Shown here: piece by piece, positions 28,952 through 45,826 of the stretch | Layout of the letters: each line of letters begins with the position of its first letter | Numbering within the stretch: the stretch's first letter is position 1 | NCBI GenBank assembly: GCA_025559845.1 | Contig: CP048470.1 | Coordinates: 1,106,001-1,170,000, forward strand | DNA from: Agrobacterium tumefaciens | Lineage (GTDB): Bacteria; Pseudomonadota; Alphaproteobacteria; Rhizobiales; Rhizobiaceae | Reading direction: 5' to 3' | DNA: 64,000 bases | Notes under the pieces: generated by a model | The model's input: only the letters and a program-made list of their open reading frames with translations | Databases searched by the model: none | What the model was told of the DNA's origin: nothing | Translations under genes and position numbers: made by a program

Positions 28952-29662
28952 TTACCGCCCGTTTACTTCCCGCCATTTGGCAAAGAGCGCGAGATTGTTC
29001 TCCTCCGTCGCCGGATAGAGCCCGATGATGGTGTGCCCTTCCTTGACCCTTTCGACGACGAAATCCTCATAGGCTGTCATTTCGACCGCTTCATCGGCAA
29101 TCTCGTCGGCGATTTCCGCCGGAATGACGATCACGCTGTCGTCGTCGCCCACCATGATGTCGCCCGGAAACACCGCAACATCACCGCAGCCGATCGGCAC
29201 ATTGATATCGATCGCTTCGTGCAGCGTCAGATTGGTCGGGCTGGATGGCCGGTGATGATAGGCGGGCATATCCAGTTCGCCGATCGTCATCGCATCACGA
29301 AAACCACCATCGGTGATCACCCCTGCCCCGCCGCGCACCATCAGTCGGGTGATGAGAATATCCCCGGCCGAAGCCGCGCGGGCATCCTTGCGGCTATCCA
29401 TGACCAGCACATGGCCTTCCGGGCAGGTTTCGATCGCATGGCGTTGCGGGTGTTTCGGATCACGGAACACCGTCATCGGATTGCGATCCTCCCGCGCCGG
29501 CATATAGCGCAAGGTGAAGGCGGGGCCGACCATGTTGCGGCCCTTCGGCCGCACCGGCCGAACGTCCTGGATCGTCTGGTTTTTCAGTCCGCGCTTGTAG
29601 AGCGCCGAGCAGAGCGTGGCGACGGATACACCCATCAGCTTGTCACGGGTTTCGGATTTCAT
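28952..29662 (-). CDS. RraA-family protein, second copy, next to the alginate locus
   Basis: The 236-residue protein has the RraA fold with DILITRLMVRGGAGVITDGGFRD split over residues 98-121; GGFRD is the signature variant. It shares little beyond that core with the copy at 21003 and has a longer C-terminal tail. This subgroup often sits in sugar-acid catabolic clusters as a putative 2-oxo-acid aldolase or decarboxylase. It is divergent from the GntR gene with 190 bases between, so it is probably under the same regulator. Whether it acts on an alginate product is inference. Confidence 0.75.
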   Translation of the reverse strand: MKSETRDKLMGVSVATLCSALYKRGLKNQTIQDVRPVRPKGRNMVGPAFTLRYMPAREDRNPMTVFRDPKHPQRHAIETCPEGHVLVMDSRKDARAASAGDILITRLMVRGGAGVITDGGFRDAMTIGELDMPAYHHRPSSPTNLTLHEAIDINVPIGCGDVAVFPGDIMVGDDDSVIVIPAEIADEIADEAVEMTAYEDFVVERVKEGHTIIGLYPATEENNLALFAKWREVNGR

Positions 29663-29809: not shown

Positions 29810-29860
29810 GATATGTCAAGTTCTATTCTGATATCTCAGTTTGGTAATTGATATGTCTAA
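29810..29860 (+). promoter_or_regulatory. Three direct repeats GATAT(G/C)TC at exact 20-bp spacing, candidate GntR operator array
   Basis: GATATGTC begins at 29810, GATATCTC at 29830 and GATATGTC at 29850. The last copy covers the GntR start codon. Spacing of about two helical turns puts all on one face of the DNA. An inverted CTTGAC/GTCAAG pair (29788-29793, 29815-29820) overlaps the first. Placement between divergent genes suggests autoregulation by the GntR protein. Confidence 0.5.
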
Positions 29861-30641
29861 CGCAATCGAATTCCCATCGCTGCCGCTCTCTGATCTCGTG
29901 ACCCCACGCGATTTGCCCGAGGATGGAAACATGACCAGTCGGGTGCATGCGCTCCTTCGCAAACTGATTGTCGAGGTGAAGCTGCTTCCAGGACGAGCGC
30001 TTTCTGAGAAGGAAATCGCGGCGCTCCTGCATGTCAGCAAGACACCGGTGCGCGAAGCGATCATTCGCCTGGCCGAAGAAGGTTTCGTTACCGTCGTGCC
30101 ACAAGGCGGCACCTATATTTCGCCGATCGATGTGCAGCGTTACATGGAAGCCTGCTTCATCCGATTCAAGCTCGAAGAAGGCGCCGTCATCGAGGCAACG
30201 AAGCGGCATTCGCTTGAAGACATTGCCCGGCTGAAAACATGTCTTTCCCAGCAGCGCATCGCAGCCGACGATGAAGAGTTCACCGACTTCTTCCTGCTGG
30301 ATGAAGAGTTTCACCGTACGATCTTTGCCGCAGCCCGGCTGCCCGGCGCCTGGAGCGTCGTCAACCAGGCCAAGGGCGAAATGGACCGTATGCGACACCT
30401 GAAGCGGGTGTTTGCAGTTCGCCGCACCGAGAAGGTGATCGAGGAGCACGAAGCGATCGTAAACGCGATCGAATCCGGCAATGTCGAGGCGGCACACGAA
30501 GCCATTCAGCGTCATCTCGGATCACTAGAATCCAAGATCGCGGAACTCTCCAAGAACCCCAAAATCTGGACCTTCATCGAGCAGGTCAACACACGCGTCA
30601 CGAGGAAGCGTGTGCCACGAGGAGCCAAGGCCCCCGCCTGA
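29853..30641 (+). CDS. GntR-family regulator (FCD domain) of the alginate locus
   Basis: The 262-residue protein has a GntR winged helix (residues 33-90: LLPGRALSEKEIAALLHVSK, then TPVREAIIRLAEEGFV) and an FCD effector domain (about 100-225) with the metal-binding pattern DEEFHRTIF, EEHEAIVNAI and HEAIQRHL histidines. The start at 29853 lies in the third 20-bp repeat. The gene is 34 bases ahead of the importer ATPase and probably in the same transcript. The likely effector is an alginate oligomer or a keto-sugar acid. Confidence 0.88.
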   Translation: MSNAIEFPSLPLSDLVTPRDLPEDGNMTSRVHALLRKLIVEVKLLPGRALSEKEIAALLHVSKTPVREAIIRLAEEGFVTVVPQGGTYISPIDVQRYMEACFIRFKLEEGAVIEATKRHSLEDIARLKTCLSQQRIAADDEEFTDFFLLDEEFHRTIFAAARLPGAWSVVNQAKGEMDRMRHLKRVFAVRRTEKVIEEHEAIVNAIESGNVEAAHEAIQRHLGSLESKIAELSKNPKIWTFIEQVNTRVTRKRVPRGAKAPA

Positions 30642-30675
30642 CGGAACATTCAAGGCTTTTGAGGAGGGGCCTTTC

Positions 30676-31791
30676 ATGTCTGCAGTTCAAATCAACGATG
30701 TCGTCAAGCGTTACGGCGCTCTCGAAGTCGTCCATGGCATCAATCTTTCCATTCAACCGCAGGAATTCGTTGTGCTCGTCGGGCCATCGGGATGCGGAAA
30801 ATCCACCACACTGCGCATGCTTGCCGGGCTGGAAGACATCTCCGACGGCACCGTCTCCATCGACGGTCGGGTCGTCAACAAGATCGCTCCGAAAGACCGC
30901 GATGTCGCCATGGTGTTCCAGAACTATGCGCTCTATCCGCATCTGAACGTCGCCGAAAACATCGCATTCGGCCTGCGTGTCCGGGGTGAAAAAAAGGATG
31001 TGATCGACAAGGCCGTTGCCGAAGCCGCACAGATCCTCAGCCTGACTGAATATCTGGGGCGCAAGCCTGCCGACCTTTCCGGTGGCCAACGCCAACGTGT
31101 TGCCATGGGCAGGGCGATCGTTCGCCGCCCCAAGATTTTCCTCTTCGACGAGCCCCTCTCCAATCTCGATGCCAAATTGCGCACCCACATGCGTGCCGAA
31201 ATCAAGCAACTGCACAAGCGCATGCAGGCGACCAGCGTCTATGTGACACACGATCAGGTCGAAGCGATGACGCTGGCGGACCGCATCGTCATCATGAACC
31301 GCGGCAACATCGAGCAGGTCGGGTCGCCGATGGAAGTCTTTCTTGAGCCGGCTAATACATTCGTGGCGAGCTTCATCGGCTCGCCGCCCATGAACCTTTT
31401 CGACGCGACGATCGACAAGCAGGATGGCCGCGCACAGGCCGTTATCTCGGGTGACGTGGCACAAAGCCTGACAATCCCCGAGGCCTTTGCCCGGAACGCG
31501 ACGCCGGGCCAGTCGGTGAAACTCGGCATCAGACCGGAAATCATGTCCGTGAAAGCTGGCGATGGGCAGGAAGTGCTCAATTGCAGCATCGAGCTCGTTG
31601 AGCCTCTCGGTGCCGAGGCCCTGTTGCACGGCAAGGCCAACGGCCAGTCCTTCATCGCCAAGGCAGAGACGCTTTATGCCGATCACGCCCTCAACGGCAT
31701 TACCCGGCTCGGAATCGATTCGGCACGCATCCATGTCTTCGACGCCACAAGCGGCCGGTCTCTCAAGACCGCCAGCGGGGCAAAGTCATGA
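30676..31791 (+). CDS. algS: Alginate oligosaccharide ABC transporter ATP-binding protein (AlgS/MsmX type)
   Basis: The 371-residue ATPase has Walker A GPSGCGKST, Q-loop VFQNYALYPHLNV, signature LSGGQRQRVAMGRAI, Walker B FLFDEPLSNLDAKL and the H-loop VTHDQVEAMTLADR. A TOBE domain with PEIMSVKAGD-like repeats is C-terminal. This is the MalK/MsmX architecture, and the length matches AlgS of Sphingomonas A1 (363). GAGGAGG precedes the ATG. It overlaps the first permease by 4 bases. Confidence 0.88.
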   Translation: MSAVQINDVVKRYGALEVVHGINLSIQPQEFVVLVGPSGCGKSTTLRMLAGLEDISDGTVSIDGRVVNKIAPKDRDVAMVFQNYALYPHLNVAENIAFGLRVRGEKKDVIDKAVAEAAQILSLTEYLGRKPADLSGGQRQRVAMGRAIVRRPKIFLFDEPLSNLDAKLRTHMRAEIKQLHKRMQATSVYVTHDQVEAMTLADRIVIMNRGNIEQVGSPMEVFLEPANTFVASFIGSPPMNLFDATIDKQDGRAQAVISGDVAQSLTIPEAFARNATPGQSVKLGIRPEIMSVKAGDGQEVLNCSIELVEPLGAEALLHGKANGQSFIAKAETLYADHALNGITRLGIDSARIHVFDATSGRSLKTASGAKS

Positions 31792-32717
31792 AACAGTATC
31801 TTCAGGAGTCGCTCCACGATCTCTGGGAAGATGTGCGCCGCGACTGGCAGCTCTATTTGCTGCTCGCACCCATGGCCATCTGGTTTGCGCTCTTTCTCTA
31901 CAAACCGATGTACGGCCTTATCATCGCCTTTCAGGACTTTTCGATCTTCCGTGGCATCGAGAAAAGTCCCTTCGTCGGCTTTGCCAACTTCATCGAGCTT
32001 TTCCAGAACGACATGTTCGTTCGTGCCTTCTGGAACACCATCACCATCAGTGGCCTCGGTCTGATCTTCGCATTTCCGGTCCCGATCATTCTGGCCCTGA
32101 TGTTCAACGAAGTTCAGAGCGAAATCGGCAAGCGCTGGGCCCAGACGATCGTTTACCTTCCCCACTTCATTTCTGTGGTGATCGTTGCAGGCATCGTCAT
32201 CAACTTCCTCTCGCCCTCCATCGGCATCGTCAATCTTCTGCTGAAGGGCATCGGGCTTGAACCGATATACTTCCTCACTCAACCCGAATGGTTCCGACCC
32301 GTGTTCATCGGCTCGTCGGTCTGGAAAGAATCGGGGTTTGAATCGATCGTCTATCTGGCAGCAATCGCCGGTGTCAGCCCAACCCTCTACGAATCCGCAC
32401 GGGTCGATGGGGCATCACGCTGGCAGATGATGTGGCGGATCACGCTGCCCTGCATTCTGCCCACGATCGTCATCATGCTGATTATCCGAATCGGCAACCT
32501 GGTCGAGGTCGGTTTCGAATACATAATCCTTCTCTATCGCCCTTCCACCTACGAGACGGCAGACGTCGTTTCGACCTTCATCTACCGCACCGGTCTGCAG
32601 GGCACCCAGTACGATCTGGCCACGGCTGCCGGCCTGTTCAATGCGGTGATCGCTTTCGTCCTAGTCTATTCGGCAAACCGCATCAGCCGAAGAGTCTCGT
32701 CGACATCGCTTTGGTGA
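31788..32717 (+). CDS. algM1: Alginate oligosaccharide ABC transporter permease (AlgM1/LplB type)
   Basis: The 309-residue protein has six hydrophobic helices and the contact loop YESARVDGASRWQMMWRITLPCI. The N-terminal YLLLAPMAIWFALFLYKPMYGLIIAFQDFS is the LplB/AlgM1 start (quoted in part: YKPMYGLIIAFQDFS). It forms a heterodimer with the next permease. Operon position and the neighbouring binding protein point to alginate oligosaccharides. Confidence 0.87.
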   Translation: MKQYLQESLHDLWEDVRRDWQLYLLLAPMAIWFALFLYKPMYGLIIAFQDFSIFRGIEKSPFVGFANFIELFQNDMFVRAFWNTITISGLGLIFAFPVPIILALMFNEVQSEIGKRWAQTIVYLPHFISVVIVAGIVINFLSPSIGIVNLLLKGIGLEPIYFLTQPEWFRPVFIGSSVWKESGFESIVYLAAIAGVSPTLYESARVDGASRWQMMWRITLPCILPTIVIMLIIRIGNLVEVGFEYIILLYRPSTYETADVVSTFIYRTGLQGTQYDLATAAGLFNAVIAFVLVYSANRISRRVSSTSLW

Positions 32718-32727
32718 GGAGCTGAAA

Positions 32728-33609
32728 ATGAAAAATTTCAATCTCTATTCGCGCGGCGACAAGATTTTTGGCTGGGCCAACGCCATTCTTCTCGGACTGT
32801 TCGTTCTGTCGACGCTTTATCCCTTCATCTACGTGGCGGCTGTTTCAATCTCGTCCGGCGCTGCCGTAACTGCAGGCCGCGTAACGTTGTGGCCGGTCGA
32901 TGTCACGCTCGCAGCCTATGAGCACGTTCTCTCCGACAGAATGTTCTGGATCGCTTACGGCAACACATTCATCTACACATTCGGCGGCACGTTCATGAGC
33001 CTGCTGATCATGATCCCCGGCGCTTATGCGCTGTCGCGCAAGCGTCTGCGCGGCCGCACCTTCTTCAACATAGCCATTGCCTTCACGCTCTGGTTCCACG
33101 CCGGCATGATCCCGTTCTTCCTGAACATGCGCGATCTTGGCCTGCTTGACAGCCGTTTCGGCATCATCATCGGCTTTGCAGCAAGCGCCTTCAACGTCAT
33201 CCTGCTGCGCAACTTCTTCGAGGCGGTCCCAAAATCCTTCGAGGAAGCCGCCAAAATGGACGGCGCCAGCGAGCTGCAACTGCTCTGGAAGGTGTTCATT
33301 CCGCTTTCCAAGCCGGCCATCGTTACCGTTGCTCTGTTTTGCATCGTGTCGCGCTGGAACGGATATTTTTGGGCCATGGTCCTGCTGCGGGGGGAGGAGA
33401 AGATCCCGCTGCAGGTCTATCTGAAACGCGTCGTCGTCGATCTCAATTCGAACGACGAATTCGCCTCGAGCCTGCTGACCGCCCATTACTCATTCGAGAC
33501 CGTTACATCCGCGATCATGATCGCGTCGATCATCCCCGTCCTCATCATTTACCCCTACGCGCAGAAGTATTTCACCAAAGGAATTCTGCTGGGCGGAGTC
33601 AAAGAGTAG
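32728..33609 (+). CDS. algM2: Alginate oligosaccharide ABC transporter permease (AlgM2/LplC type)
   Basis: The 293-residue protein has exactly the length of Sphingomonas AlgM2. It has six hydrophobic helices, the TLYPFIYVAAVSIS start and the contact loop SFEEAAKMDGASELQLLWKVF, followed by IPLSKPAIVTVALF. It starts 10 bases after algM1. Confidence 0.87.
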   Translation: MKNFNLYSRGDKIFGWANAILLGLFVLSTLYPFIYVAAVSISSGAAVTAGRVTLWPVDVTLAAYEHVLSDRMFWIAYGNTFIYTFGGTFMSLLIMIPGAYALSRKRLRGRTFFNIAIAFTLWFHAGMIPFFLNMRDLGLLDSRFGIIIGFAASAFNVILLRNFFEAVPKSFEEAAKMDGASELQLLWKVFIPLSKPAIVTVALFCIVSRWNGYFWAMVLLRGEEKIPLQVYLKRVVVDLNSNDEFASSLLTAHYSFETVTSAIMIASIIPVLIIYPYAQKYFTKGILLGGVKE

Positions 33610-33630
33610 CAGCACAAGGGAGGAGAACCT

Positions 33631-35199
33631 GTGAGAAAACTACGAAAAGGCGCGCCCCTTCTGGCGTTGATGACAGCAGCGACAATGGCCTTGCCGGCCT
33701 TTGCACAAGATGCCGGCAAGATATCAGAAGATCCGTTGGAGCTGACAATCCATTTCCACTTCCGCGACAAATACGTCTATTCGGAAAAGTGGCCGGTGGA
33801 GCAGAAAGCTGCGGAGATCACCAACATCCACGTCCGCAACGTCGCATCGCTGGCGACGACCAGCAGTCGCGATGCCTTCAACCTGTTGATCGCCTCGGGT
33901 GATCTTCCCGATATCGTCGGCGGCGACGCTTCCGGCGGCCTGAAGGAAGACTTCATCCGCTATGGTCTTGAAGGGGCCTTCATCCCGCTCGACGAGCTGA
34001 TCGAGGAACATGCACCAAACCTGAAAGCCTTTTTCGATAGCCACAAGGACATTCGCAATGCGATTTCCGGACCGGATGGCAAACTCTATTTCATTCCATA
34101 TGTGCCAGACGGGAAATATTCGCGTGGCTGGTTTGTCCGCCAGGACTGGCTCGACAAGCTGGGACTGAAACAGCCCGAAACGCCGGAAGAGGTCTACGAG
34201 GTCCTCAAGGCGTTCAGGGACAAAGACCCGAACGGCAACGGTAAAAAGGATGAAGTTCCGTATTTTGCCCGTGAGGAAATCGATGCGGTCCGTCTCATCA
34301 ATCTCTGGGACGCCCGCGTTTCAGGGTCCGAGCGTTACGGAGACTTTGCTGTCTACGACGGACAGCTCCGCCATCCCTGGGCTGAAGAGAACTACAAGGT
34401 TGGGATTTCAAATGTTGCCAAGTGGTACAAGGAAGGCCTGATCGACAAGGAGATCTTCACCCGCGGCGCCCGTTCGCGTGAATATCTTCTTGGCAACAAT
34501 CTCGGTGGCATGACGCATGACTGGTTCGCCAGTACCTCGACCTATAACGACGCCCTGTCGCCAAAGATCGAAGGTTTCGCGCTGAAGCCCATGCTGCCGC
34601 CCAAGACCGTATCGGGTCAACGCTTCGAGGATGCGCGACGGCTGCGTGTTCAGCCCGTCGGCTGGGCAATTTCGGCCACCAACGAACACCCGGTCGAAAC
34701 GATCAAGTACTTCGATTTCTGGTTCTCGCAGCAAGGCCGCATCCTGTCGAATTTCGGCGTCGAGGGTCAAACCTTCGAAATGGTCGACGGCAAGCCGCAG
34801 TTCAAAAAGGAAGTGCTGGAGAACAAGGACCCGGTGAACGCCCAGCTTTGGGCCGTCGGCGCCCAGGTGCCGCGCGGCTACTGGATGGACTACGAATACG
34901 AGCGCCAGTGGACCAACAAGATCGCGCTGGAAGGCATCGATCTCTACGACAAGTGCAACTGCCTCAAGGACGAGTTCATGGGCGTGTCTTTGAACGCCGA
35001 GGAAAAGGCGACCTTCGACCGTTACTGGCCGAGCCTTCTCACCTACATGACCGAGATGCAGCAGACATGGGTGCTTGGCGCCCAGGACGTCGATACCGGC
35101 TGGGATGCCTACAAAAAAAGGCTGACAGCGCTCGGTTACGACGAGGTCATCAAGATCATGCAATCGGCCTACGACCGTCAGTACAAGGCGGCACAATAA
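33631..35199 (+). CDS. algQ: Alginate oligosaccharide-binding protein (AlgQ family)
   Basis: The 522-residue protein (GTG start, GGGAGGAG before it) has a signal peptide cleaved near residue 25 (AFA-Q). The mature chain follows AlgQ1/AlgQ2 of Sphingomonas A1 closely: TIHFHFRDKYVYSEKWPV, ASGDLPDIVGGD, EGAFIPLDELI and NLGGMTHDWFAST. The calcium-binding loop DPNGNGKKDE (199-208) is conserved. It would capture alginate oligosaccharides in the periplasm for the AlgS-M1-M2 importer. Length is the same class as AlgQ (about 526). Confidence 0.92.
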   Translation: MRKLRKGAPLLALMTAATMALPAFAQDAGKISEDPLELTIHFHFRDKYVYSEKWPVEQKAAEITNIHVRNVASLATTSSRDAFNLLIASGDLPDIVGGDASGGLKEDFIRYGLEGAFIPLDELIEEHAPNLKAFFDSHKDIRNAISGPDGKLYFIPYVPDGKYSRGWFVRQDWLDKLGLKQPETPEEVYEVLKAFRDKDPNGNGKKDEVPYFAREEIDAVRLINLWDARVSGSERYGDFAVYDGQLRHPWAEENYKVGISNVAKWYKEGLIDKEIFTRGARSREYLLGNNLGGMTHDWFASTSTYNDALSPKIEGFALKPMLPPKTVSGQRFEDARRLRVQPVGWAISATNEHPVETIKYFDFWFSQQGRILSNFGVEGQTFEMVDGKPQFKKEVLENKDPVNAQLWAVGAQVPRGYWMDYEYERQWTNKIALEGIDLYDKCNCLKDEFMGVSLNAEEKATFDRYWPSLLTYMTEMQQTWVLGAQDVDTGWDAYKKRLTALGYDEVIKIMQSAYDRQYKAAQ

Positions 35200-35212
35200 C
35201 ACTGTCTATCAT

Positions 35213-35236
35213 GATGGCGGCCCTGTCGCCGCCATC
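35213..35236 (+). promoter_or_regulatory. Hairpin after the algQ gene
   Basis: GATGGCGG (35213-35220) and CCGCCATC (35229-35236) form a perfect 8-bp stem with an 8-base loop. A weak T-rich stretch (TTTCCATTTGCTTTTT) follows. It may be a leaky terminator or stabiliser between the binding protein and the lyase. Confidence 0.6.
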
Positions 35237-35269
35237 CTTTCCATTTGCTTTTTAAGGAGTTAGAGCGCA

Positions 35270-37600
35270 ATGCGTCCCTCTGCCTCGGCGATTGCCAGAC
35301 AAGCTCATCTCGATGAACCGCGCCCCGGTTCCTTGACCATTGGTTACATGCCGAGCGAGCAAACACCGCCCACCGAGAACCCGCCGCGTTTTTCCTGGCT
35401 GCCCGATATCGATGATGGCGCACGCTACGTTCTGCGCATCTCGACCGATCCCGGATTTTCAGACGCGAAGACGCACACCTTCGAAGACCTCGCCTGGAAT
35501 TTCTTCACGCCGGATGAAGCCCTGGCGGAAGGCCACTATCATTGGGCCTATGCCCTTTGGGACCAGAATGCTGCAGCGCCCCTTTCGAACTGGAGCAAAG
35601 TGCGCAGTTTCGAGATCGTCGCGGCACTGCCCAAAACACCAGTACCCAGCAGGGCGGCCCGTCATGAGGCTGCCCACAGATCCCATCCGAGGCTCTGGCT
35701 CAATCCCGATCAGTTGAAAGTCTTCGCCGACGCCGTCGCCAAAGACCCTGACCATTGCGGCTGGACCGACTTTTTCGAAAAGTCGGTAGAACCCTGGATC
35801 GACCGGCCGATCATGCCAGAACCGCAGCCTTACCCGAACAACATCCGCGTCGCGGCGCTGTGGCGCCAGATGTATATCGATTGCCAGGAAGTGATTTACG
35901 CAATCCGCCATCTGGCGATTGCCGGTCGGGTCTTGGGACGGGAAGACCTTCTCGATAAAGCCCGAGACTGGCTGTTATCCGTTGCCGCCTGGGACCCTAA
36001 TGGCGCAACATCGCGCGCCTACAACGACGAGGCAGGGTTCCGCGTCGTTGTCGCCCTCGCCTGGGGTTACGACTGGCTTTACGACCATTTGAGCGCAGAC
36101 GAACGAGAGACCGTCAGAAATGTGCTGCTGCGTCGGACGCGTGAAGTCGCAGACCATGTGACAGCCCATGCGCGCATTCACGTCTTCCCTTATGACAGCC
36201 ACGCCGTTCGTTCGCTGTCTGCCGTCCTCACCCCCGCCTGCATTTCTCTACTCGGGGAAAGCGACGAAGCCGGCGAATGGCTCGACTATACAGTTGAGTT
36301 CCTCGCCACGCTTTATTCGCCATGGGCGGGAACCGATGGCGGCTGGGCCGAAGGGCCACATTACTGGATGACCGGTATGGCCTATCTCATCGAAGCCGCC
36401 AACCTGATCCGCTCCTATATCGGTTACGATCTCTACCAGCGACCGTTCTTCCAGAACACCGGACGGTTCCCGCTTTACACCAAGGCGCCCGGCACCCGCC
36501 GTGCCAATTTCGGTGACGATTCCACCCTGGGCGATCTTCCCGGACTGAAGGTGGGCTACAATGTGCGGCAGTTTGCAGGGGTAACCGGCAACGGTCATTA
36601 TCAATGGTATTTCGATCGCCTCAAAAATGATGCGGCCGGGACGGAAATGGCCTTTTACAATTACGGTTGGTGGGATCTGAATTTTGATGATCTGGTCTAT
36701 CGCCATGATTACCGCCAAGTCGAGCCCGTCTCGCCGGCTGACCTGCCAGCACTTGCCGTGTTTGACGATATCGGCTGGGTGACCATCCAGAAACATATGG
36801 AAGACCCGGACCGGCATCTGCAGTTCGTCTTCAAATCGAGCCCGTATGGATCGCTCAGCCACAGCCATGGCGATCAGAATGCCTTTGCGCTTTATGCCTA
36901 TGGCGAAGACCTTGCGATCCAGTCGGGATATTATGTCGCCTTCAATTCACAGATGCACCTGAACTGGCGCCGGCAGACACGCTCGAAAAATGCGGTGCTG
37001 ATTGGTGGCAAAGGCCAATATGCGGAAAAAGACAAGGCGCTGGCACGGCGGGCCGCGGGTCGTATTGTTTCCGTGGAGGAAAAGCCCGGTCATGTTCGCA
37101 TCCTTGGCGATGCAACGGCCGCCTACCAGGTTGCTAATCCGCTGGTCCGCAAGGCAGAACGCGAAATCCACTTCGTCAACGACAGCTATTTCGTGTTTGT
37201 CGATGAGGTTGAATGCGAAGAACCCCAGGAACTGCAATGGCTCTGCCATACTCTCGGGGCACCGCAGACCGGTCGATCGAGTTTTCGATACACAGGCAAG
37301 AAAGCGGGTTTCTACGGTCAGTTCGTCTTCTCGTCGGCAGGCACACCGCAAATCACAGCCATTGAAGGATTTCCCGAGATCGACCCGAAGGAATTCGAGG
37401 GTCTCGATATCCATCATCACGTCTGCGCGACTGTCCCGGCCTCAACCCGGCATCGCCTGGTCACCCTTCTCGTGCCCTACAGCCTGAACGAACCGAAGCG
37501 GATTTTCAGCTTCATCGACGATCAGGGTTTTTCGACAGACATCTACTTCAGCGATGTCGACGACGAGCGTTTCAAGCTCTCCCTTCCCAAGCAATTCTAG
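35270..37600 (+). CDS. Exolytic alginate lyase, PL15 family (heparinase II/III fold)
   Basis: The 776-residue protein has the same length as Atu3025 of Agrobacterium, the structurally known PL15 exo-alginate lyase. The residues reported there as catalytic or substrate-binding fall at the same numbers: His311 (PYDSHAV), Tyr365 (GPHYW), Trp467 (YGWWD) and His531 (SLSHSHGD). Layout: an N-terminal beta domain (1-130), an alpha/alpha toroid (about 135-480) and C-terminal beta sandwiches with the HSHGDQNAF motif. No signal peptide is visible, so it acts in the cytoplasm on imported oligosaccharides and releases unsaturated monouronate (DEH). AAGGAG precedes the ATG. Confidence 0.95.
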   Translation: MRPSASAIARQAHLDEPRPGSLTIGYMPSEQTPPTENPPRFSWLPDIDDGARYVLRISTDPGFSDAKTHTFEDLAWNFFTPDEALAEGHYHWAYALWDQNAAAPLSNWSKVRSFEIVAALPKTPVPSRAARHEAAHRSHPRLWLNPDQLKVFADAVAKDPDHCGWTDFFEKSVEPWIDRPIMPEPQPYPNNIRVAALWRQMYIDCQEVIYAIRHLAIAGRVLGREDLLDKARDWLLSVAAWDPNGATSRAYNDEAGFRVVVALAWGYDWLYDHLSADERETVRNVLLRRTREVADHVTAHARIHVFPYDSHAVRSLSAVLTPACISLLGESDEAGEWLDYTVEFLATLYSPWAGTDGGWAEGPHYWMTGMAYLIEAANLIRSYIGYDLYQRPFFQNTGRFPLYTKAPGTRRANFGDDSTLGDLPGLKVGYNVRQFAGVTGNGHYQWYFDRLKNDAAGTEMAFYNYGWWDLNFDDLVYRHDYRQVEPVSPADLPALAVFDDIGWVTIQKHMEDPDRHLQFVFKSSPYGSLSHSHGDQNAFALYAYGEDLAIQSGYYVAFNSQMHLNWRRQTRSKNAVLIGGKGQYAEKDKALARRAAGRIVSVEEKPGHVRILGDATAAYQVANPLVRKAEREIHFVNDSYFVFVDEVECEEPQELQWLCHTLGAPQTGRSSFRYTGKKAGFYGQFVFSSAGTPQITAIEGFPEIDPKEFEGLDIHHHVCATVPASTRHRLVTLLVPYSLNEPKRIFSFIDDQGFSTDIYFSDVDDERFKLSLPKQF

Positions 37601-37618
37601 TCAATGCGAGGTTTTCAA

Positions 37619-38368
37619 ATGCAACGTTTCACCAACAAGACTGTTGTCGTCGCCGGTGCAGGCCGGGATATCGGCCGTGCATGCGCCATCCGTTTTGCGC
37701 AGGAAGGTGCCAATGTCGTGCTGACCTATAACGGTGCAGCCGATGGCGCGGCCACAGCCGTTGCCGAAATCGAAAAAATCGGAGGCTCGGCCATCGCGAT
37801 CAGGGCGGATCTTACCAAAGCAAGCGACGTCGAGGCGGCGATTTCGACCGCTGTCGACAAGTTTGGCGAGATTCACGGTCTCGTACATGTCGCTGGTGGC
37901 CTGATTGCCCGCAAGACGATTGCCGAAATGGACGAAGCCTTCTGGCACCAGGTACTCGACGTCAACCTCACCTCGCTCTTCCTCACCGCAAAGGCAGCGT
38001 TGCCGAAGATGGCGAAGGGTGGTGCAATCGTCACCTTCTCATCGCAGGCCGGTCGCGATGGCGGCGGTCCGGGCGCGCTCGCCTATGCGACCTCCAAGGG
38101 CGCCGTCATGACCTTCACCCGCGGCCTCGCCAAGGAAGCCGGCCCAAACATTCGCGTCAACGCCGTCTGCCCCGGGATGATCTCGACAACCTTCCACGAC
38201 ACCTTCACCAAACCCGAGGTGCGCGAACGGGTGGCCGGTGCCACATCGCTGAAGCGTGAAGGGTCGAGCGAGGACGTCGCCGGTCTGGTGGCATTCCTGA
38301 CATCTGATGATGCTGCCTACATCACCGGCGCCTGCTACGACATCAATGGCGGCGTTCTGTTCTCCTGA
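37619..38368 (+). CDS. Short-chain dehydrogenase, probable DEH reductase
   Basis: The 249-residue SDR has [10 protein letters not shown] (nucleotide motif, with Arg-Asp in place of the usual residues), HVAGG for the NAG motif, the catalytic Ser in TFSSQAG, YATSK and the C-terminal DINGG. It directly follows the PL15 lyase. In Agrobacterium the gene after Atu3025 encodes the reductase of 4-deoxy-L-erythro-5-hexoseulose uronate, giving 2-keto-3-deoxygluconate. I choose the ATG at 37619 because GAGG lies 7-8 bases ahead; an ATG at 37604 lacks one. Cofactor choice is not clear. Confidence 0.82.
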
Positions 38369-38383
38369 TATCCTGGTAAAACC

Positions 38384-39553
38384 ATGTCCGTATCGTTACC
38401 AAGGGCGAGCCGAATTGCCGTGCTCGGAACATCGCTCGTCCAGCAGAACCATATCGGCGACGCGGGCTCGCTTGCCACATCGGCACGCGGCTGGATGAGT
38501 TGGGCAGAGGTCCTGTCGCATGGCAGGCTAAGCTGCCCGGTCCATCATGATCCGTCCGTCCCATCCGGCTGGGAGCCCAGCAATCGGCCCGGTGTCAGCC
38601 GCTTCTTTTCCGGCCTCAATTTCGGGGTTTCCGGCCAAAAAGCGGTCGAGATCGAGCGGCGCCTGCCGCGACTGTTGCAATCGGATTTCGATCTGATCCT
38701 GGTCGATGCCGGCACCAACGACATGATGGTGGAGAGCCGTCAGACGATCGCCGATACACGGGCACGGATCGCATCGACCTTGCTCGACGCCGGAAAGACC
38801 GTGATCCTGCTCCCCATACTGGCCCGCAGCATCGGAAAATGGCCGGCTGGCGGTGCCGAACGGGCAAAAGCGCACTGGATCAACCGCCAGAGTATCGAGT
38901 TTGCCGCAAGCCACGCCAATTGCCATGTGTTCGATTGGAACGCGGTCTGGGTCGACCCTGAGAGCGAATTCGGTGAGCCTTATCCGGGCTATTCCGACGA
39001 TGGCACCCATTTTTCGGTGCCGGGTGCCTTCGCCGTCGGAAAGCTGCTGGCAACCTATCTCGAAACGATTGTGCCCCGCGCCGCCGATCGCATTCTGGCA
39101 AGAGACGACCGTTTCGATCCGATCAACAACCCAGCCGGCAATCTGGCGCCGGACGCGTCAGCGCGGGTCGTGAAAGAGATGATTGAAAAGAACCACCGTC
39201 TCGGCGGAGAGCTTGTTCACCCCGGCACGGGCGTCTGGCTGGAAGCGATCTGCGACGTCGACGTACCTGCGCATGAGGGGGTGCTTGGCATATCGCTACG
39301 CCTGAAAGATGTTGCGACGGAAGGACAGGAAGCAACAGCGCTCGCTCCCTTCCGCGACAACGATGGCACAGTTTTTTCTTTCCCCGATATCCGATGGAAA
39401 GGCGCACTGCGTACGCCACCGTTAAAACTCCGGCCGGGTAGCGCGCCGCCCGAACTCTATCTCGATATCCTGTTGCGGCCCGGATCAAACCCAATCGCAA
39501 TCGACGTTTCTCGCATTGATGTCCGGCCCGTTTCCAGCCCGGTGCGCGCATGA
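38384..39553 (+). CDS. SGNH/GDSL-family hydrolase
   Basis: The 389-residue protein has block I GTSL with nucleophile Ser17, block II Gly84, block III GTND (110-113) and block V DGTH (206-209), completing a Ser-Asp-His triad. The C-terminal third (about 250-389) is an extra domain of unknown type. No signal peptide is seen, so it is cytoplasmic. In an alginate operon it may remove O-acetyl groups from imported uronate oligomers. Family firm; deacetylase role is inference. It overlaps the next gene by 4 bases. Confidence 0.8.
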   Translation: MSVSLPRASRIAVLGTSLVQQNHIGDAGSLATSARGWMSWAEVLSHGRLSCPVHHDPSVPSGWEPSNRPGVSRFFSGLNFGVSGQKAVEIERRLPRLLQSDFDLILVDAGTNDMMVESRQTIADTRARIASTLLDAGKTVILLPILARSIGKWPAGGAERAKAHWINRQSIEFAASHANCHVFDWNAVWVDPESEFGEPYPGYSDDGTHFSVPGAFAVGKLLATYLETIVPRAADRILARDDRFDPINNPAGNLAPDASARVVKEMIEKNHRLGGELVHPGTGVWLEAICDVDVPAHEGVLGISLRLKDVATEGQEATALAPFRDNDGTVFSFPDIRWKGALRTPPLKLRPGSAPPELYLDILLRPGSNPIAIDVSRIDVRPVSSPVRA

Positions 39554-40584
39554 AAAAGTCCCCTGACAAACCACGGCTGTTGATCGCCATGCGCGAAGAG
39601 CTTCCCAAAGGGTTCTTCGGATCGCGAGAATGGGCACGGCTGAATGCCGTAACGGACATCATTGCGGGTTTTCCCTGCACGGATTTCGACACGGCAGAAG
39701 GAAGCAAGGCCTTGGCGGAGGCCGATATTCTGCTGGCAGCATGGGGTACGCCATCGCTGACAAGAGAACGCCTTTCCCGGGCACCAAAACTGAAAATGCT
39801 GGCTTATGCCGCTTCATCGGTGCGCAGCGTCGCACCTCCCGAATTTTGGGAAACGTCCAATATTCTGGTGACGACGGCGGCATCCGCCATGGCCGTGCCG
39901 GTGGCCGAGTTCACCTACGCAGCAATCATCATGTGCTGCAAGGATGTGTTTCGCCTGCGCGATGAGCACCGGAAAGAGCGCGGCACCGGCGGCTTTGGCA
40001 GTCGGCGCGGTATGAGCCTGCCATACCTCGGCAACTATGATCGCAGGATCGGCATTGTCGGCGCATCCCGCATCGGGCGACTGGTGATCGAAATGCTTGG
40101 ACGGGGAAATTTCGAGATCGGCGTTTACGACCCCTATCTCTCCGAGGCAGACGCCTCGGCCCTGGGTGCAACGAAAATGGACCTGCATGCGCTTCTCGCC
40201 TGGTCCGACGTGGTTTCGCTGCATGCACCGATCCTGCCGGAAACCCGCCACATGATTGGCGCCCGCGAGCTTGCATTGATGCCCGACCATGCGGTCTTCA
40301 TCAACACTGCGCGCGGCTGGCTCGTCGACCACGATGCATTGCTGTTGGAAGCAAAATCCGGACGGCTGCGCATCCTGATCGACACGCCGGAACCGGAGCC
40401 TCTACCGACCGACAGTCTCTTCTACGATCTGCCCAATGTCGTTCTCACCCCACATATTGCCGGGGCGCTGGGCAATGAATTGCGGGCGCTGTCCGATCTC
40501 GCCATCACGGAAATCGAGCGTTTCATCGCTGGCCTTCCACCTCTGCACCCCGTTTTCAAGCAGGATATGGAGCGCATGGCATGA
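39550..40584 (+). CDS. D-isomer-specific 2-hydroxyacid dehydrogenase
   Basis: The 344-residue protein has the NAD-binding motif GIVGASRIG (168-176; the middle Gly is Ser), then VYDPYL (Asp194, NAD preference). Catalytic Arg255 (NTARGWLVD), Glu282 (DTPEPEP) and His302 (TPHIAG) follow. The family reduces 2-oxo acids to D-2-hydroxy acids or the reverse. It overlaps genes on both sides by 4 bases, so it is tightly coupled to the SGNH hydrolase and the TIM-barrel protein. The substrate is probably a sugar-derived oxo acid. Not part of the classical alginate pathway. Confidence 0.85.
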   Translation: MKKSPDKPRLLIAMREELPKGFFGSREWARLNAVTDIIAGFPCTDFDTAEGSKALAEADILLAAWGTPSLTRERLSRAPKLKMLAYAASSVRSVAPPEFWETSNILVTTAASAMAVPVAEFTYAAIIMCCKDVFRLRDEHRKERGTGGFGSRRGMSLPYLGNYDRRIGIVGASRIGRLVIEMLGRGNFEIGVYDPYLSEADASALGATKMDLHALLAWSDVVSLHAPILPETRHMIGARELALMPDHAVFINTARGWLVDHDALLLEAKSGRLRILIDTPEPEPLPTDSLFYDLPNVVLTPHIAGALGNELRALSDLAITEIERFIAGLPPLHPVFKQDMERMA

Positions 40585-41366
40585 AGACGTTCGACTACAG
40601 CTTTTCGACACTCGGCTGTTCTGAACTCAATCTGCACGAGGTCGCCGACCTCGCCCAACACCATGGCATCGCATGTGTGGAATTGCGGACGCTGGCCGGT
40701 ACGGTCGATCTGATCGCGGCACTGGAGGCTGAATTTGGCAGCCCTGACCGGTTTGCCACTTTCCTGACCGGACGCAATCTCAGGGCGGCTGCACTCAACA
40801 CGTCGGTCCGATTGTTCGAAAGCGAAGACCTCTCCGCCGTTGAACCATTCATCCCCTGGGCCGAAGCGGCGGGGATCGCACATCTTCGTATTTTCGATGG
40901 CGGCGGGCAGTTAAGCGCTGAAGACATGTCGCACGCTGAAAAGCTGCTGAGTGATTGGCAGGCACTGCGACAGTCGCGCCAACTCAGTGTCGATCTGATG
41001 ATCGAGACCCACGATGCACTAGCGGATTCTAGACAGCTCTTCGCTTTTGTCGAGCGCGTGCCGACAGCGCGGATCTTGTGGGATACTCATCATACCTGGG
41101 CCAAGGGCTCCGATCTCGCAACCGTCTGGCAAAACATTGCCAAAAGCGTTGTCCATCTGCACGTCAAGGACAGCAGGCTAGATGATGCAGGACGCCGACG
41201 CTACGTGCTGCCCGGCCACGGCAACTTTCCCATGGCGGACCTGATTTCACTGCTTCGATCGAGTGATCGACAAATACCCCTCAGTCTCGAATGGGAGCGC
41301 CATTGGCATCCCGAACTGCCACCTCTGGACGACGCGCTGACGGCAGCGCGTAGCTGGTGGCGATAG
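40581..41366 (+). CDS. Sugar phosphate isomerase/epimerase-like TIM-barrel protein
   Basis: The 261-residue protein belongs to the xylose-isomerase-like AP endonuclease 2 superfamily: FDYSFSTLGCSELNL at the start, IACVELRTLAG, and metal-ligand segments MIETHDA, ILWDTHHTW, VVHLHVKDSR and LEWERHWHPEL. The four acid/His ligands of the family metal site are all visible. Members isomerise or epimerise sugars and keto-acids. It is coupled by a 4-base overlap to the dehydrogenase and lies 8 bases from the enolase-family gene. Substrate unknown. Confidence 0.82.
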   Translation: MKTFDYSFSTLGCSELNLHEVADLAQHHGIACVELRTLAGTVDLIAALEAEFGSPDRFATFLTGRNLRAAALNTSVRLFESEDLSAVEPFIPWAEAAGIAHLRIFDGGGQLSAEDMSHAEKLLSDWQALRQSRQLSVDLMIETHDALADSRQLFAFVERVPTARILWDTHHTWAKGSDLATVWQNIAKSVVHLHVKDSRLDDAGRRRYVLPGHGNFPMADLISLLRSSDRQIPLSLEWERHWHPELPPLDDALTAARSWWR

Positions 41367-41374
41367 GAGTTTTT

Positions 41375-42622
41375 ATGCGGATCGCTGAAATCCATCTCAC
41401 ACCGGTTGCCATCCCTGACAAGCCTCTGCTGAACTGCAAAGGCGTCCACCAACCTCACGCCCTGAGGACTATTATCGAGGTCGTCTGTGACGATGGCACC
41501 GTGGGTCTTGGGGAGAGCTACGGAAGCATCAAGGCACTGGACGGCCTGCAACGTGCGGCGCCTGCCCTGGTCGGCCTCGACCCGTTTCACCTCCACGAAC
41601 TGAAATCGCGGGTGATTGCCGCTCTGCCCGGAGGCGGTGGCATCAATGCGAAATCGGCCGTGGCCGATCACAAGCTGACAGACGTCGTCGCATCCGCCTT
41701 CGAAGTGCCCTGCCTCGATATTCAGGGCAAGTTGCTCGGGCGGCCTGTCTCCGATCTTTTGGGCGGTATGGTTCGGACAAGCGTTCCCTTCAGCGCCTAC
41801 CTGTTCTTCAAATACGCGGCCCACATCGGCGAAGAACCTGATGAATGGGGAGAGGTCCTGACCCCTGACCAGATGGTCGGTGAAGCGCAGAAGATGGTCG
41901 AAACATACGGCTTCCAATCGCTGAAGCTGAAGGGTGGCGTGCTGCATCCCGATCTCGAAATCGAGACGATGCGGAAATTGCGAAAGGCTTTTCCGGATCA
42001 CCCGTTGCGAATTGACCCAAATGGCGGCTGGACGGTTGAAACCGCCATTCACATCGCCCGCGAACTCGAGAGCGTTCTGGAATACCTTGAAGACCCTGTC
42101 ATCGGCATGGACCAGATGGCAAAGGTGGCGGCGGCCACTTCGCTTCCGCTTGCCACCAACATGATCGTTCTGGAGTTCGATCAGATCGCCGAGGCCTTCC
42201 GCAAAAACGCCGTGCAGATCGTCCTGTCAGATCATCATTACTGGGGTGGATTGCGCGCCTCGACCCATCTCGGCAAGATCTGCGAAACATTGGGGCTCGG
42301 AGTTTCGATGCATTCGAACTCGCATCTCGGTATCACGCTTGCCGCCATGACGCATGTGGCCGCTGCCACACCAAACCTCAGTTATGACTGCGATACACAT
42401 TATCCCTGGACCGGCGTCGACGTGATCGAAGGAACACCATTCACGTTCCGGAAAGGCCGTCTGCAGGTGCCGACCGAGCCTGGTCTTGGTGTCGCCCTCG
42501 ACCGGAGCAAGCTCGCCAAACTCGCCGCTCTGTATGAGCAGACGGCGATGAAAGAGCGTGACGACACGGCCTACATGAAGAAATTTGACCCAACCTACGA
42601 GCGCAAGGTGCCGCGCTGGTGA
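41375..42622 (+). CDS. Enolase-superfamily acid-sugar dehydratase, glucarate-dehydratase-like
   Basis: The 415-residue protein has the glucarate dehydratase layout: Lys184-x-Lys186 (LKLKGG), metal ligands Asp214 (RIDPNGGW), Glu239 (LEDP) and Asn262 (ATNM), and the Asp286-His313 dyad (LSDHHYWGG, SMHSNSHLG). Asn as the third ligand is characteristic of the GlucD subgroup. It would dehydrate an aldarate or aldonate to a 2-keto-3-deoxy acid. AGGAG lies 5 bases before the ATG at 41375, deciding the start over 41357. It is the last gene of the operon. The exact acid sugar is unknown. Confidence 0.87.
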   Translation: MRIAEIHLTPVAIPDKPLLNCKGVHQPHALRTIIEVVCDDGTVGLGESYGSIKALDGLQRAAPALVGLDPFHLHELKSRVIAALPGGGGINAKSAVADHKLTDVVASAFEVPCLDIQGKLLGRPVSDLLGGMVRTSVPFSAYLFFKYAAHIGEEPDEWGEVLTPDQMVGEAQKMVETYGFQSLKLKGGVLHPDLEIETMRKLRKAFPDHPLRIDPNGGWTVETAIHIARELESVLEYLEDPVIGMDQMAKVAAATSLPLATNMIVLEFDQIAEAFRKNAVQIVLSDHHYWGGLRASTHLGKICETLGLGVSMHSNSHLGITLAAMTHVAAATPNLSYDCDTHYPWTGVDVIEGTPFTFRKGRLQVPTEPGLGVALDRSKLAKLAALYEQTAMKERDDTAYMKKFDPTYERKVPRW

Positions 42623-42654: not shown

Positions 42655-44490
42655 TCAGACCGCCACAAGATGTCCCGGAGACACCTCGCGATAGTCCAGC
42701 GGCTTGACAACATAATCGACGGAGCGAACCGGGCTTTTGATTTCGTCGTTTGCGGCGGACCGCTTTTCGCTCCGACGATCAGGGTCCGGCACCGGAACCG
42801 CAGCCATCAGTTTTTTGGTGTAGGCATGCTGCGGGTTTTCAAACACCGCAGCCCGCGGACCGATCTCGACGATCTCTCCAAGATACATCACGGCAACCCG
42901 GTGACTGACGCGTTCAACGACAGCCATGTCGTGCGAAATGAAGAGGAAGGCAAGGTTCAGGTTCTGCTGCAAATCGAGCATCAGGTTGATGACCTGCGCC
43001 TTGATCGACACGTCGAGCGCCGACACGCTCTCATCCGCAACGATCGCTTTCGGCTCAAGCGCCAAAGCCCGCGCGATGCAGATGCGCTGGCGTTGGCCAC
43101 CGGAAAATTCATGCGGGAAACGCGACGCCATATCAGGCGTAAGACCGACTTTCTCCAGGAGATCCGCAACACGGTCTTTCGCCTGTTTGGCGTTGCCCAT
43201 CTTATGCTCGAGATAGGGCTCGGCAATGGCATCACCAACGCGGATGCGGGGATTGAGGCTGGCGAAGGGGTCCTGAAAAATCATCTGGATCGATTTGCGC
43301 ATTTCGCGCAGACCCGATTTGTCCAGCGCCAGCACATCCTTGCCATCGGCAACGACCGAACCGCTCTGCGCATCGATGAGACGCATGATGGCCCGGCCCG
43401 TCGTTGATTTGCCGCAGCCCGACTCGCCAACCAATGATAGCGTTTCACCAGCATGGAGGTCGAACGAGACATTCTCGACGGCATGGACTCGGCCGGTCAG
43501 CTTGCCGAAAAGACCTGAGTGGATATCGAAACGTTTGGTGAGGTTCTTGACCTCCAGTACCGGGCGCAAGCTGGAGGCGACGGTATCGGCCGTCTCCACC
43601 GGCAGCTTCGATTCACCGGTTGCGGTGTTGACCACTGGAAACCGCAGTGGGCGTTCGTAACCCTTCATCGATCCGAGAACCGGGACAGCAGACAGCAGGG
43701 CACGCGTGTACGGATGCTGCCCACGGTGAAAGATGTCGGCCGTGGCGCGTGTCTCCACCTGTTCGCCGCGATACATGACGACGGTACGATCCGCGATCTC
43801 CGCGACCACACCCATATCATGGGTGATGAACAGCACCGACGTTCCCTCTTCTTCCTGTAACGTCTTGATGAGATCGAGGATCTGACCCTGGATCGTCACA
43901 TCGAGAGCCGTCGTCGGTTCGTCGGCAATCAGCAGCTTCGGACGTGACGCAAGCGCCATTGCGATCATCACACGTTGACGCATGCCGCCGGAGAAGCGGT
44001 GTGGGTATTCGTCAAAACGCGACGCGGCAGAAGGGATGCGCACCTTTTCCAGCAACCGGATGGTTTCGGCCCGCGCCTCGGCCTTCGACATCGGTTTGTG
44101 GCAAAGCAGCGCCTCGGAAATCTGGTCGCCGATCGTGAAGAGCGGATTGAGCGATGTCATCGGCTCCTGAAAAATCATCGCGACATCATTGCCGCGAACG
44201 TTGCGCATCTTCTCCTCGGGAAGAGCAAGCAGATCCCGACCACCGAGCAGGATCTTGCCTTCGATACGGCTCGAATCCGCCTGGAGGAGACGCATGATCG
44301 AGAGAGAGGTCACGCTCTTGCCCGAACCGCTTTCGCCGACAATCGCGACCGTTTCGCCGGGGGCGACATCAAAGGAAACATCACGGACGACAGGCTTCCA
44401 CGCGCCATCCACCAAGAACGAAGTCGTCAGGTTGCGAACGGAAAGAACGGGGTCTGCCGCTGCGCTGGTTTGTGCCTGGATACCTGCCAT
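42655..44490 (-). CDS. Fused dipeptide/opine-type ABC ATPase (DppD-DppF fusion, GsiA-like)
   Basis: The 611-residue protein holds two complete ABC domains. The first has GESGSGKS, FSGGMRQRVMIAMAL and LIADEPTTALDVT. The second has GESGCGKST, FSGGQRQRICIARAL and IVADESVSALDVS (Glu-Ser in place of Glu-Pro). Each is followed by the oligopeptide C-terminal segment (HPYTRALLSAVP and HAYTKKLMAAVP). The ATG at 44490 follows GAGAGGAAG. It supplies the ATPase for the permeases and binding protein at 48419-51833, which lie in a separate transcript beyond the IclR gene. It ends convergently with the alginate operon. Confidence 0.9.
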   Translation of the reverse strand: MAGIQAQTSAAADPVLSVRNLTTSFLVDGAWKPVVRDVSFDVAPGETVAIVGESGSGKSVTSLSIMRLLQADSSRIEGKILLGGRDLLALPEEKMRNVRGNDVAMIFQEPMTSLNPLFTIGDQISEALLCHKPMSKAEARAETIRLLEKVRIPSAASRFDEYPHRFSGGMRQRVMIAMALASRPKLLIADEPTTALDVTIQGQILDLIKTLQEEEGTSVLFITHDMGVVAEIADRTVVMYRGEQVETRATADIFHRGQHPYTRALLSAVPVLGSMKGYERPLRFPVVNTATGESKLPVETADTVASSLRPVLEVKNLTKRFDIHSGLFGKLTGRVHAVENVSFDLHAGETLSLVGESGCGKSTTGRAIMRLIDAQSGSVVADGKDVLALDKSGLREMRKSIQMIFQDPFASLNPRIRVGDAIAEPYLEHKMGNAKQAKDRVADLLEKVGLTPDMASRFPHEFSGGQRQRICIARALALEPKAIVADESVSALDVSIKAQVINLMLDLQQNLNLAFLFISHDMAVVERVSHRVAVMYLGEIVEIGPRAAVFENPQHAYTKKLMAAVPVPDPDRRSEKRSAANDEIKSPVRSVDYVVKPLDYREVSPGHLVAV

Positions 44491-44524
44491 GCTTGCTTCC
44501 TCTCTCTGTGTTTCGCTCTGATGA

Positions 44525-45721: not shown

Positions 45722-45792
45722 TGTGGTCTCCAATTTCGAATGCCTCAGACCAAGGGGTCTTGTGATTTCCCTCACTGAAGCGTATGCCATAG

Positions 45793-45803
45793 TTATGTAA
45801 TAA
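45793..45803. promoter_or_regulatory. Candidate IclR operator TTAT-GTA-ATAA
   Basis: A short palindrome, TTAT (45793-45796) and ATAA (45800-45803), lies in the 105-base divergent region between the SelA-like and IclR genes. A related sequence, TTATGTTATATAA, occurs before the binding-protein gene at 51864-51876. Shared placement upstream of both halves of the cluster suggests one regulator. Confidence 0.35.
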
Positions 45804-45826
45804 GCTCGCATCTGCATACGAGGAGC

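Follow-up and report, generated by a model that had tools for sequence, protein, structure and literature searches.

The alginate route described for Agrobacterium tumefaciens reportedly goes no further than a lyase, a reductase, a kinase and an aldolase. Here we consider 64,000 nucleotides of an A. tumefaciens genome (assembly GCA_025559845.1, contig CP048470.1, positions 1,106,001 to 1,170,000; hereafter the window), which have the same order of family 15 polysaccharide lyase (PL15), ATP-binding cassette (ABC) importer, short-chain dehydrogenase/reductase (SDR) and GntR-type regulator as the A. tumefaciens system of the PL15 lyase Atu3025, and which continue behind PL15 and SDR with four further plus-strand genes, referred to hereafter as the tail. 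In order, these encode an SGNH hydrolase (SGNH), a D-2-hydroxyacid dehydrogenase (D2HDH), a xylose-isomerase-like TIM barrel protein (TIM) and a glucarate dehydratase (GlucD)-like enzyme of the enolase superfamily (ENO). No assignment of the four was found in a literature search of limited depth. The window PL15 belongs to its family by alignment with PDB 3a0o, an 'oligo alginate lyase' (776/776 residues, 1660 bits); its second-ranked structure match, 3afl, is Atu3025 (PMC11921355).

Flavobacterium sp. UMI-01 has an oxidative DEHU pathway (FlRed, FlDet and FlDeg; PMC8563752), in which FlRed oxidises 4-deoxy-L-erythro-5-hexoseulose uronate (DEH) to an erythro 2-keto-3-deoxy-hexarate (KDGR), which the RraA-family enzyme FlDet converts to alpha-ketoglutarate semialdehyde. 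The window likewise has an SDR and an RraA-family gene, the latter being likened to FlDet by family only; GlucD-like, D2HDH, TIM and SGNH proteins, all four present in the window, are not mentioned in the pathway account of that paper. The Udh-Gci-KdgD route follows a like logic, from hexuronate through hexarate and keto-deoxy-hexarate to alpha-ketoglutarate semialdehyde (PMC6353982), and what we propose below for the window differs from it in its mannuronate/guluronate stereochemistry, its erythro product and RraA replacing KdgD. Section 9 of the same review, on pathways, gives no route for free mannuronate or guluronate. Finally, the N-module of PsmE from Pseudomonas syringae is an SGNH-type alginate deacetylase, of the same superfamily as the window SGNH, and deacetylation opens acetylated alginate to further enzymes (PMC4444821). 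PsmE is a modular epimerase, whereas the window SGNH stands alone, lacks a leader and carries a C-terminal beta domain; the two are likened by family, not by sequence.

The tail is a conserved but modular accessory of alginate loci

A first-pass annotation of the window had described the tail as unusual, but in PL15 loci of this genus it is the rule. PL15 was found in 16/39 genomes of the genus, and in all 16 (15 fetched loci and our own) the four tail genes follow the SDR in identical order. This shared order exceeds chance and rules out a species oddity; in this lineage the tail forms a conserved module accessory to alginate use rather than a local peculiarity. A GntR gene opens the operon in 18/18 fetched loci with a full tail. 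TIM is the fast-changing member of the tail, with 68-76% identity compared to 84-91% for ENO across 14 genus loci (same-species locus excluded).

Beyond the genus the pattern loosens. SGNH was detected in 8 of 394 sampled genomes of the family (E <=1e-20), with a full tail in our own genome, G399, G361, G619 and G717 and only PL15-SDR-SGNH in G726 and G788, while in G385 SGNH is present and PL15 was not found in the fetched 19.5 kb. Among 397 sampled genomes of the order, PL15 occurs in three, namely our own, G361 and G134, the last having PL15-SDR without a tail on a 12-kb contig. A scan of genome contigs for ENO gave 101 loci, the best 80 of which were kept, as fetched stretches of varying length. 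All four tail genes are present in 17/21 Hyphomicrobiales loci with both ENO and PL15 (counting frame-broken L078, and L082 with a partial SGNH); SGNH is absent from three (L070, L071 and L074) and the D2HDH-TIM pair from one (L072). Two of the tail-bearing contigs (L060 and L067) are titled A. tumefaciens. In Devosia neptuniae the four tail genes are followed by RraA, Ensifer canadensis has PL15-SDR-SGNH without the remaining tail genes, and ENO lies near PL15 in 6/20 PL15 plasmid records. We conclude that the tail is modular, with SGNH, D2HDH-TIM and ENO gained or lost separately and ENO as the deepest partner of alginate loci. The single four-gene branch suggested by the first-pass annotation does not agree with this, while its assignment of the tail to the alginate system is borne out by the 16/16 genus loci and by the linkage of ENO with PL15 in other orders and on contigs titled Granulosicoccaceae.

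ENO belongs to an orphan GlucD-like clade linked with alginate loci

The best NCBIfam model for ENO is that of glucarate dehydratase (TIGR03247), matched at 255.7 bits against an equivalog cut-off of 828.7; the label 'GlucD-like' given at first pass therefore fits, and ENO as a canonical GlucD is rejected. Mannonate dehydratase (ManD) was likewise rejected (46.8 bits, cut-off 550). Residues K184, K186, D214, E239, N262, D286 and H313 align with 3mzn and reproduce the KxK motif, the metal ligands D-E-N and the D-H pair on which GlucD-type catalysis depends, a set common to ENO and the GlucD and GlucD-like structures 3vdg, 3va8, 3vc5 and 4it1. What separates ENO from GlucD, apart from the score, is a clade-specific set of residues in the N-terminal part, including K22, N91, A92, H99 and D103. 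In the enolase superfamily the N-terminal cap reads the far end of the substrate, and cap residues particular to the clade are to be expected if ENO reads another C2 configuration. Both R395 and H25 are retained, and since the corresponding residues of GlucD presumably bind the distal carboxylate, we rank a hexarate first and a free hexuronate second as the substrate.

A quick tree was built from 80 ENO rows, without L078; in it the clade comprises 46 rows (45 loci and the window) at an SH-like approximate likelihood-ratio support (SH-aLRT) of 100. PL15 stands beside 40/46 fetched loci of this clade (L057-L102, with L078 counted as seen and L102 as not seen), and beside 0/34 ENO loci outside it within the fetched stretches. 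Where PL15 was not seen, three contigs are shorter than 6 kb (L083, L087 and L093, the first two carrying an alginate-type ABC ATPase) and that of L102 ends at the solute-binding protein (SBP) gene. In the genome of L076, PL15 lies next to TIM, with a piece of ENO where the contig ends, and the genome of L075 has no PL15, an Opp-type importer and GntR there being divergent from ENO-RraA-SDR. Linkage of ENO with PL15 extends outside the order to contigs titled Granulosicoccus or Granulosicoccaceae, which we take to be of another class; these come from metagenome bins, and one of them, L091, groups with Rhodobacterales rows and may be misbinned.

A further pattern emerges from the genes next to ENO. 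Two actinobacterial loci, L105 (titled Streptomyces) and L106 (Kribbella), contain an ENO relative of 52% identity in the order DHDPS-family gene, ENO, unknown gene, D2HDH, D2HDH, PL7. The DHDPS-family protein of L105 exceeds the cut-off of PRK03620, the 5-dehydro-4-deoxyglucarate dehydratase subfamily, but not that of the KdgD equivalog; Alginate_lyase2 is matched by the gene at the end of L105 (126 bits). Relatives of this KdgD-type gene occur in L103, L104 and L106; L103 reads DHDPS-ENO-D2HDH and L104 DHDPS-ENO only, making PL7 present in 2/4 and D2HDH in 3/4 of the group. In two loci of Opitutae/Opitutia (L130 and L134), ENO is accompanied by relatives of aldehyde dehydrogenase and, at 35%, of DHDPS. 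Where the L105 group has its KdgD-type gene, RraA is the neighbour in the window, L075 and Devosia and also in some loci of Rhodobacterales, and it directly follows ENO in L073-L076, L078 and L140. Relatives of ENO thus repeatedly adjoin a gene making, or perhaps making, alpha-ketoglutarate semialdehyde from a keto-deoxy-hexarate, and the side branch imagined at first pass, with an enolase-family dehydratase acting on a hexuronate-derived acid, fits these neighbours; at first pass D2HDH was further imagined as a possible reductase of the dehydratase product. The window RraA, which the first-pass annotation had overlooked, is separated from the divergent GntR open reading frame (ORF) by 178 bases. 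Its matches (NF006093, 351 bits against a cut-off of 208; RraA-like and PRK08245 over cut-off) point to a candidate KDGR dehydratase/decarboxylase of the oxidative DEH route.

ENO shares an operator-like site with the alginate importer in Rhodobacterales

The ENO-first scan was complemented by a PL15-first search of 295 genomes from the Rhodobacterales family of G1089 (Maliponia locus L096); the PL15 and ENO searches are taken as covering the same set, and at most six first-look candidates per genome were scored for ENO. PL15 was present in 31/295 genomes (including L219, at a contig end with one stop, and L220, a degraded locus), and ENO of the clade adjoins it in 10/31. ENO matches occurred in 16/295 genomes: the ten at 57-61% identity are exactly the PL15-adjacent ones, and the other six (51-54%) are of other kinds, including two from PL15 genomes in which ENO lies on a different contig. 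Close ENO is associated with PL15 at a Fisher p of 3.8e-11 over the 295 genomes, a value made optimistic by shared descent.

In 10/10 of these loci ENO and the ABC ATPase gene are divergently arranged, their matches 97-181 bp apart, and 10/10 of the intervals contain a GTATACTAGT-like site with no more than one mismatch. The same kind of site is found 5' of the ABC ATPase in 26/31 PL15 loci (L192-L222). It is a likely operator of an alginate regulon, and ENO is a real, optional and probably co-regulated partner of the importer in Rhodobacterales. Sites of this type are also seen near GntR, TRAP and cupin genes in several loci. By eye, the site was not seen in the RraA-GntR interval of the window, where a palindrome search gave one weak repeat and which is similar in L035, L036 and L052. 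As a separate observation, L138, L141, L154, L205, L207, L213 and L214 have PL15 together with Gfo/Idh/MocA and ManD genes and no adjacent ENO, several with TRAP genes; such a pair could serve to use saturated mannuronate reductively. In L221, ENO and ManD occur together.

The remaining tail enzymes

SGNH shows the Ser, Gly, Asn and Asp-x-x-His blocks and the fold of SGNH hydrolases, with S17, N112, D206 and H209 invariant in the alignment, and has no leader ahead of its first strand (residue 11). Acetylesterases are among its tied fold matches. SGNH is a likely cytoplasmic acetylesterase of alginate oligomers, and the esterase for acetylated oligomers proposed at first pass stays its likeliest role. 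D2HDH matches the 2-Hacid_dh_C domain, and the TARG, EPEP and PHIAG motifs, as seen by eye in the translation, would supply the Arg, Glu and His that act in catalysis by D-2-hydroxyacid dehydrogenases. In TIM, E142, D168 and E237 are invariant and H194 is at least 90% conserved over 43 sequences. No NCBIfam family matched TIM at 1e-3, its fold is common to many AP_endonuc_2 proteins, and the range of its fold neighbours is too broad to justify a label as Hyi, KguE or an epimerase. The D2HDH-TIM pair also occurs elsewhere: Sinorhizobium and Chelatococcus have it with DUF2264 and LacI genes, and Rhizobium Kim5 has it with IolB/KduI and GH39 genes.

Proposed salvage of saturated alginate ends and its alternatives

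We infer the substrates and reactions of all four tail enzymes from the observed gene content, linkage, conserved catalytic residues and, in Rhodobacterales, the operator-like site shared with the importer. The reading we prefer, tentatively and short of calling it probable, is a salvage of saturated alginate ends. SGNH would strip O-acetyl groups from imported oligomers of bacterial alginate, allowing PL15 to act, and PL15 would convert all residues to DEH except the saturated, original non-reducing end, released as D-mannuronate or L-guluronate. Oxidation at C1 by the SDR or D2HDH would then give a hexarate, D-mannarate or L-gularate, as the most likely substrate of ENO, which would dehydrate the saturated acid across C4-C5 to KDGR. 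This would be the same product as oxidised DEH, leaving one keto-deoxy pool, from which RraA would form alpha-ketoglutarate semialdehyde, with D2HDH-TIM as an accessory redox/isomerase pair. Loss of the C5 hydrogen and the C4 hydroxyl turns mannuronate and guluronate into DEH, both hexarates into erythro-KDGR and, by a like step, mannonate and gluconate into 2-keto-3-deoxygluconate; GlucD itself eliminates in this way and takes either C5 epimer of its substrate. Likewise, D-mannuronate and L-guluronate are epimeric at C5 (PMC4444821).

Several observations weigh against salvage. Chief among them is that our own genome encodes, on a contig other than that of the window, one protein that exceeds the PL7-family cut-off, and has two PL5-family matches, so oligomers may arrive already unsaturated and saturated ends may be rare. 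The absence of the tail beside PL15 in relatives, which the first-pass annotation had itself regarded as damaging, does not occur in the genus, but in the Rhodobacterales family SGNH, D2HDH and TIM accompany PL15 in 0/31 loci and 21/31 are without an adjacent ENO; it follows that no tail gene is required for alginate use in general. RraA stands beside just 5/19 full-tail loci including the window (at the window's position in 4/18 fetched relatives, for which ~0.7-2.3 kb of upstream DNA was covered). ENO and PL15 lie ~930 kb apart in Neorhizobium galegae HAMBI 540, the remaining 13/20 PL15 plasmid records have no ENO of at least 57% among the matches listed, and the PL15-free genome of L075 encodes two other heparinase-C proteins, a possible source of lyase. 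Moreover, KDGR from DEH is the erythro hexarate while KdgD is known on the threo form, and its use of erythro KDGR is left open in the relevant part of PMC8563752, meaning that KdgD-type neighbours of ENO may signify another stereoisomer.

It is less likely, though worth serious attention, that ENO acts directly on free open-chain D-mannuronate or L-guluronate and forms DEH in one step, after which the SDR and RraA would work as usual. No additional dehydrogenase is then needed, ENO-RraA-SDR of L075 would suffice as a whole pathway starting at hexuronate, and L192, L212 and others contain, among the query-set genes, only ABC, PL15, SDR, cupin or GntR besides ENO. Plasmid loci of Limimaricola, Falsirhodobacter and Tropicibacter with Gfo/Idh/MocA and ManD, readable as mannuronate reduction followed by mannonate dehydration, point the same way, as does ManD of at least 80% near PL15 in 6/21 loci without ENO compared to 1/10 with it; this difference is not significant (Fisher p 0.38), and mutual exclusion of ENO and ManD is rejected. 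The retention of R395 and H25, on the other hand, favours a diacid substrate, the KdgD-type gene beside ENO in the Kribbella group and the 35% relative beside ENO in Opitutia favour a hexarate product, and no member of the enolase superfamily is known to us as a hexuronate dehydratase.

That the tail serves another or mixed uronan (for example a glucuronan or decorated oligosaccharide) through the same transporter, alginate being one substrate of several, was the first alternative raised at first pass and appears rather improbable: the D2HDH-TIM pair does recur with DUF2264/LacI and IolB/KduI/GH39 and is thus not alginate-specific, but ENO and SGNH track PL15, without exception for close ENO in Rhodobacterales. 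Slightly more doubtful still is a role for D2HDH and TIM on a C3 fragment, in which aldolase cleavage of KDGR would yield tartronate semialdehyde besides pyruvate, and TIM would isomerise the semialdehyde to hydroxypyruvate for reduction by D2HDH to D-glycerate, although hydroxypyruvate isomerases are AP_endonuc_2 proteins, glyoxylate/hydroxypyruvate reductase models match D2HDH (far below cut-off), and D2HDH and TIM are present or absent together in the 21 Hyphomicrobiales loci. Least credible is that operon inertia carries the tail genes as passengers with no role in alginate use. The sporadic losses of SGNH and D2HDH-TIM among those 21 loci would suit this, but the order is kept throughout the genus, the catalytic residues are intact, and in Rhodobacterales ENO is linked in another, divergent arrangement with a shared operator-like site.

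Organization of the locus

The plus-strand run extends from 29841 to 42622, from GntR to ENO (Table 1). As reported at first pass, and confirmed by reading ORFs and junctions directly, four genes follow PL15-SDR, with 4-base ATGA overlaps at 39550 (SGNH/D2HDH) and 40581 (D2HDH/TIM). The stop codon of TIM ends at 41366, and after an 8-base gap ENO begins with an ATG at 41375, preceded by AGGAG; the ORF list starts it at an alternative GTG at 41357. From this spacing, tail and lyase operon may form one translational unit. Promoter and terminator scans of the window gave counts close to those of shuffled sequences, with no sign of separate or joint transcription of the tail. The SDR is taken to be a DEH reductase from its gene position.

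Table 1. Features of the alginate locus (window coordinates)
Feature	Position	Strand	Basis or predicted role
RraA-family protein, PRK08245 subfamily, divergent from operon	28952..29662	-	Candidate KDGR dehydratase/decarboxylase, FlDet-like
GntR/FCD regulator, first gene of operon	29841..30641	+	Pfam GntR and FCD
ABC ATPase	30610..31791	+	Pfam ABC_tran, OB_MalK; actual start probably within ORF
ABC permease 1	31788..32717	+	Sugar ABC permease models below cut-off; conserved order
ABC permease 2	32728..33609	+	ORF and conserved order alone
Solute-binding protein (SBP)	33631..35199	+	Pfam SBP_bac_1
Conserved GC-rich hairpin, SBP/PL15 interval	35213..35236	+	Folding of window and relatives
PL15 exo-alginate lyase	35270..37600	+	PDB 3a0o alignment
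SDR (ATG possibly 37619)	37604..38368	+	Pfam SDR; directly after PL15 in relatives
SGNH hydrolase with C-terminal beta domain	38384..39553	+	Pfam Lipase_GDSL_2, fold matches, conserved residues
D2HDH	39550..40584	+	Pfam 2-Hacid_dh_C, 152 bits
TIM	40581..41366	+	Pfam AP_endonuc_2
ENO, GlucD-like dehydratase	41375..42622	+	Pfam MR_MLE; GlucD-type catalytic residues kept

A hairpin occupies the SBP/PL15 position in nine folded relatives, and in L053, L054 and L140 its stems differ in sequence yet still pair; it may set the ratio of SBP to lyase. Downstream of the tail, the minus strand (42655-46669) encodes an OppD-OppF fusion and a DgaE/SelA-like pyridoxal phosphate enzyme, then an IclR gene. 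Of the 15 fetched genus loci, only L035, from the same species, has these three genes after the tail.

Implications

We think it quite possible, short of probable, that alginate users of several lineages employ a new dehydratase of the enolase superfamily, acting on mannarate/gularate or mannuronate/guluronate, which salvages saturated residues left by the exolyase into the DEH/KDGR pool. If true, this would add a missing branch to bacterial alginate catabolism and give the orphan GlucD-like clade a substrate class, while terrestrial alginate users would gain a cytoplasmic deacetylation step for acetylated bacterial alginate. In Rhodobacterales and Hyphomicrobiales, ENO would also mark the genomes of alginate users.

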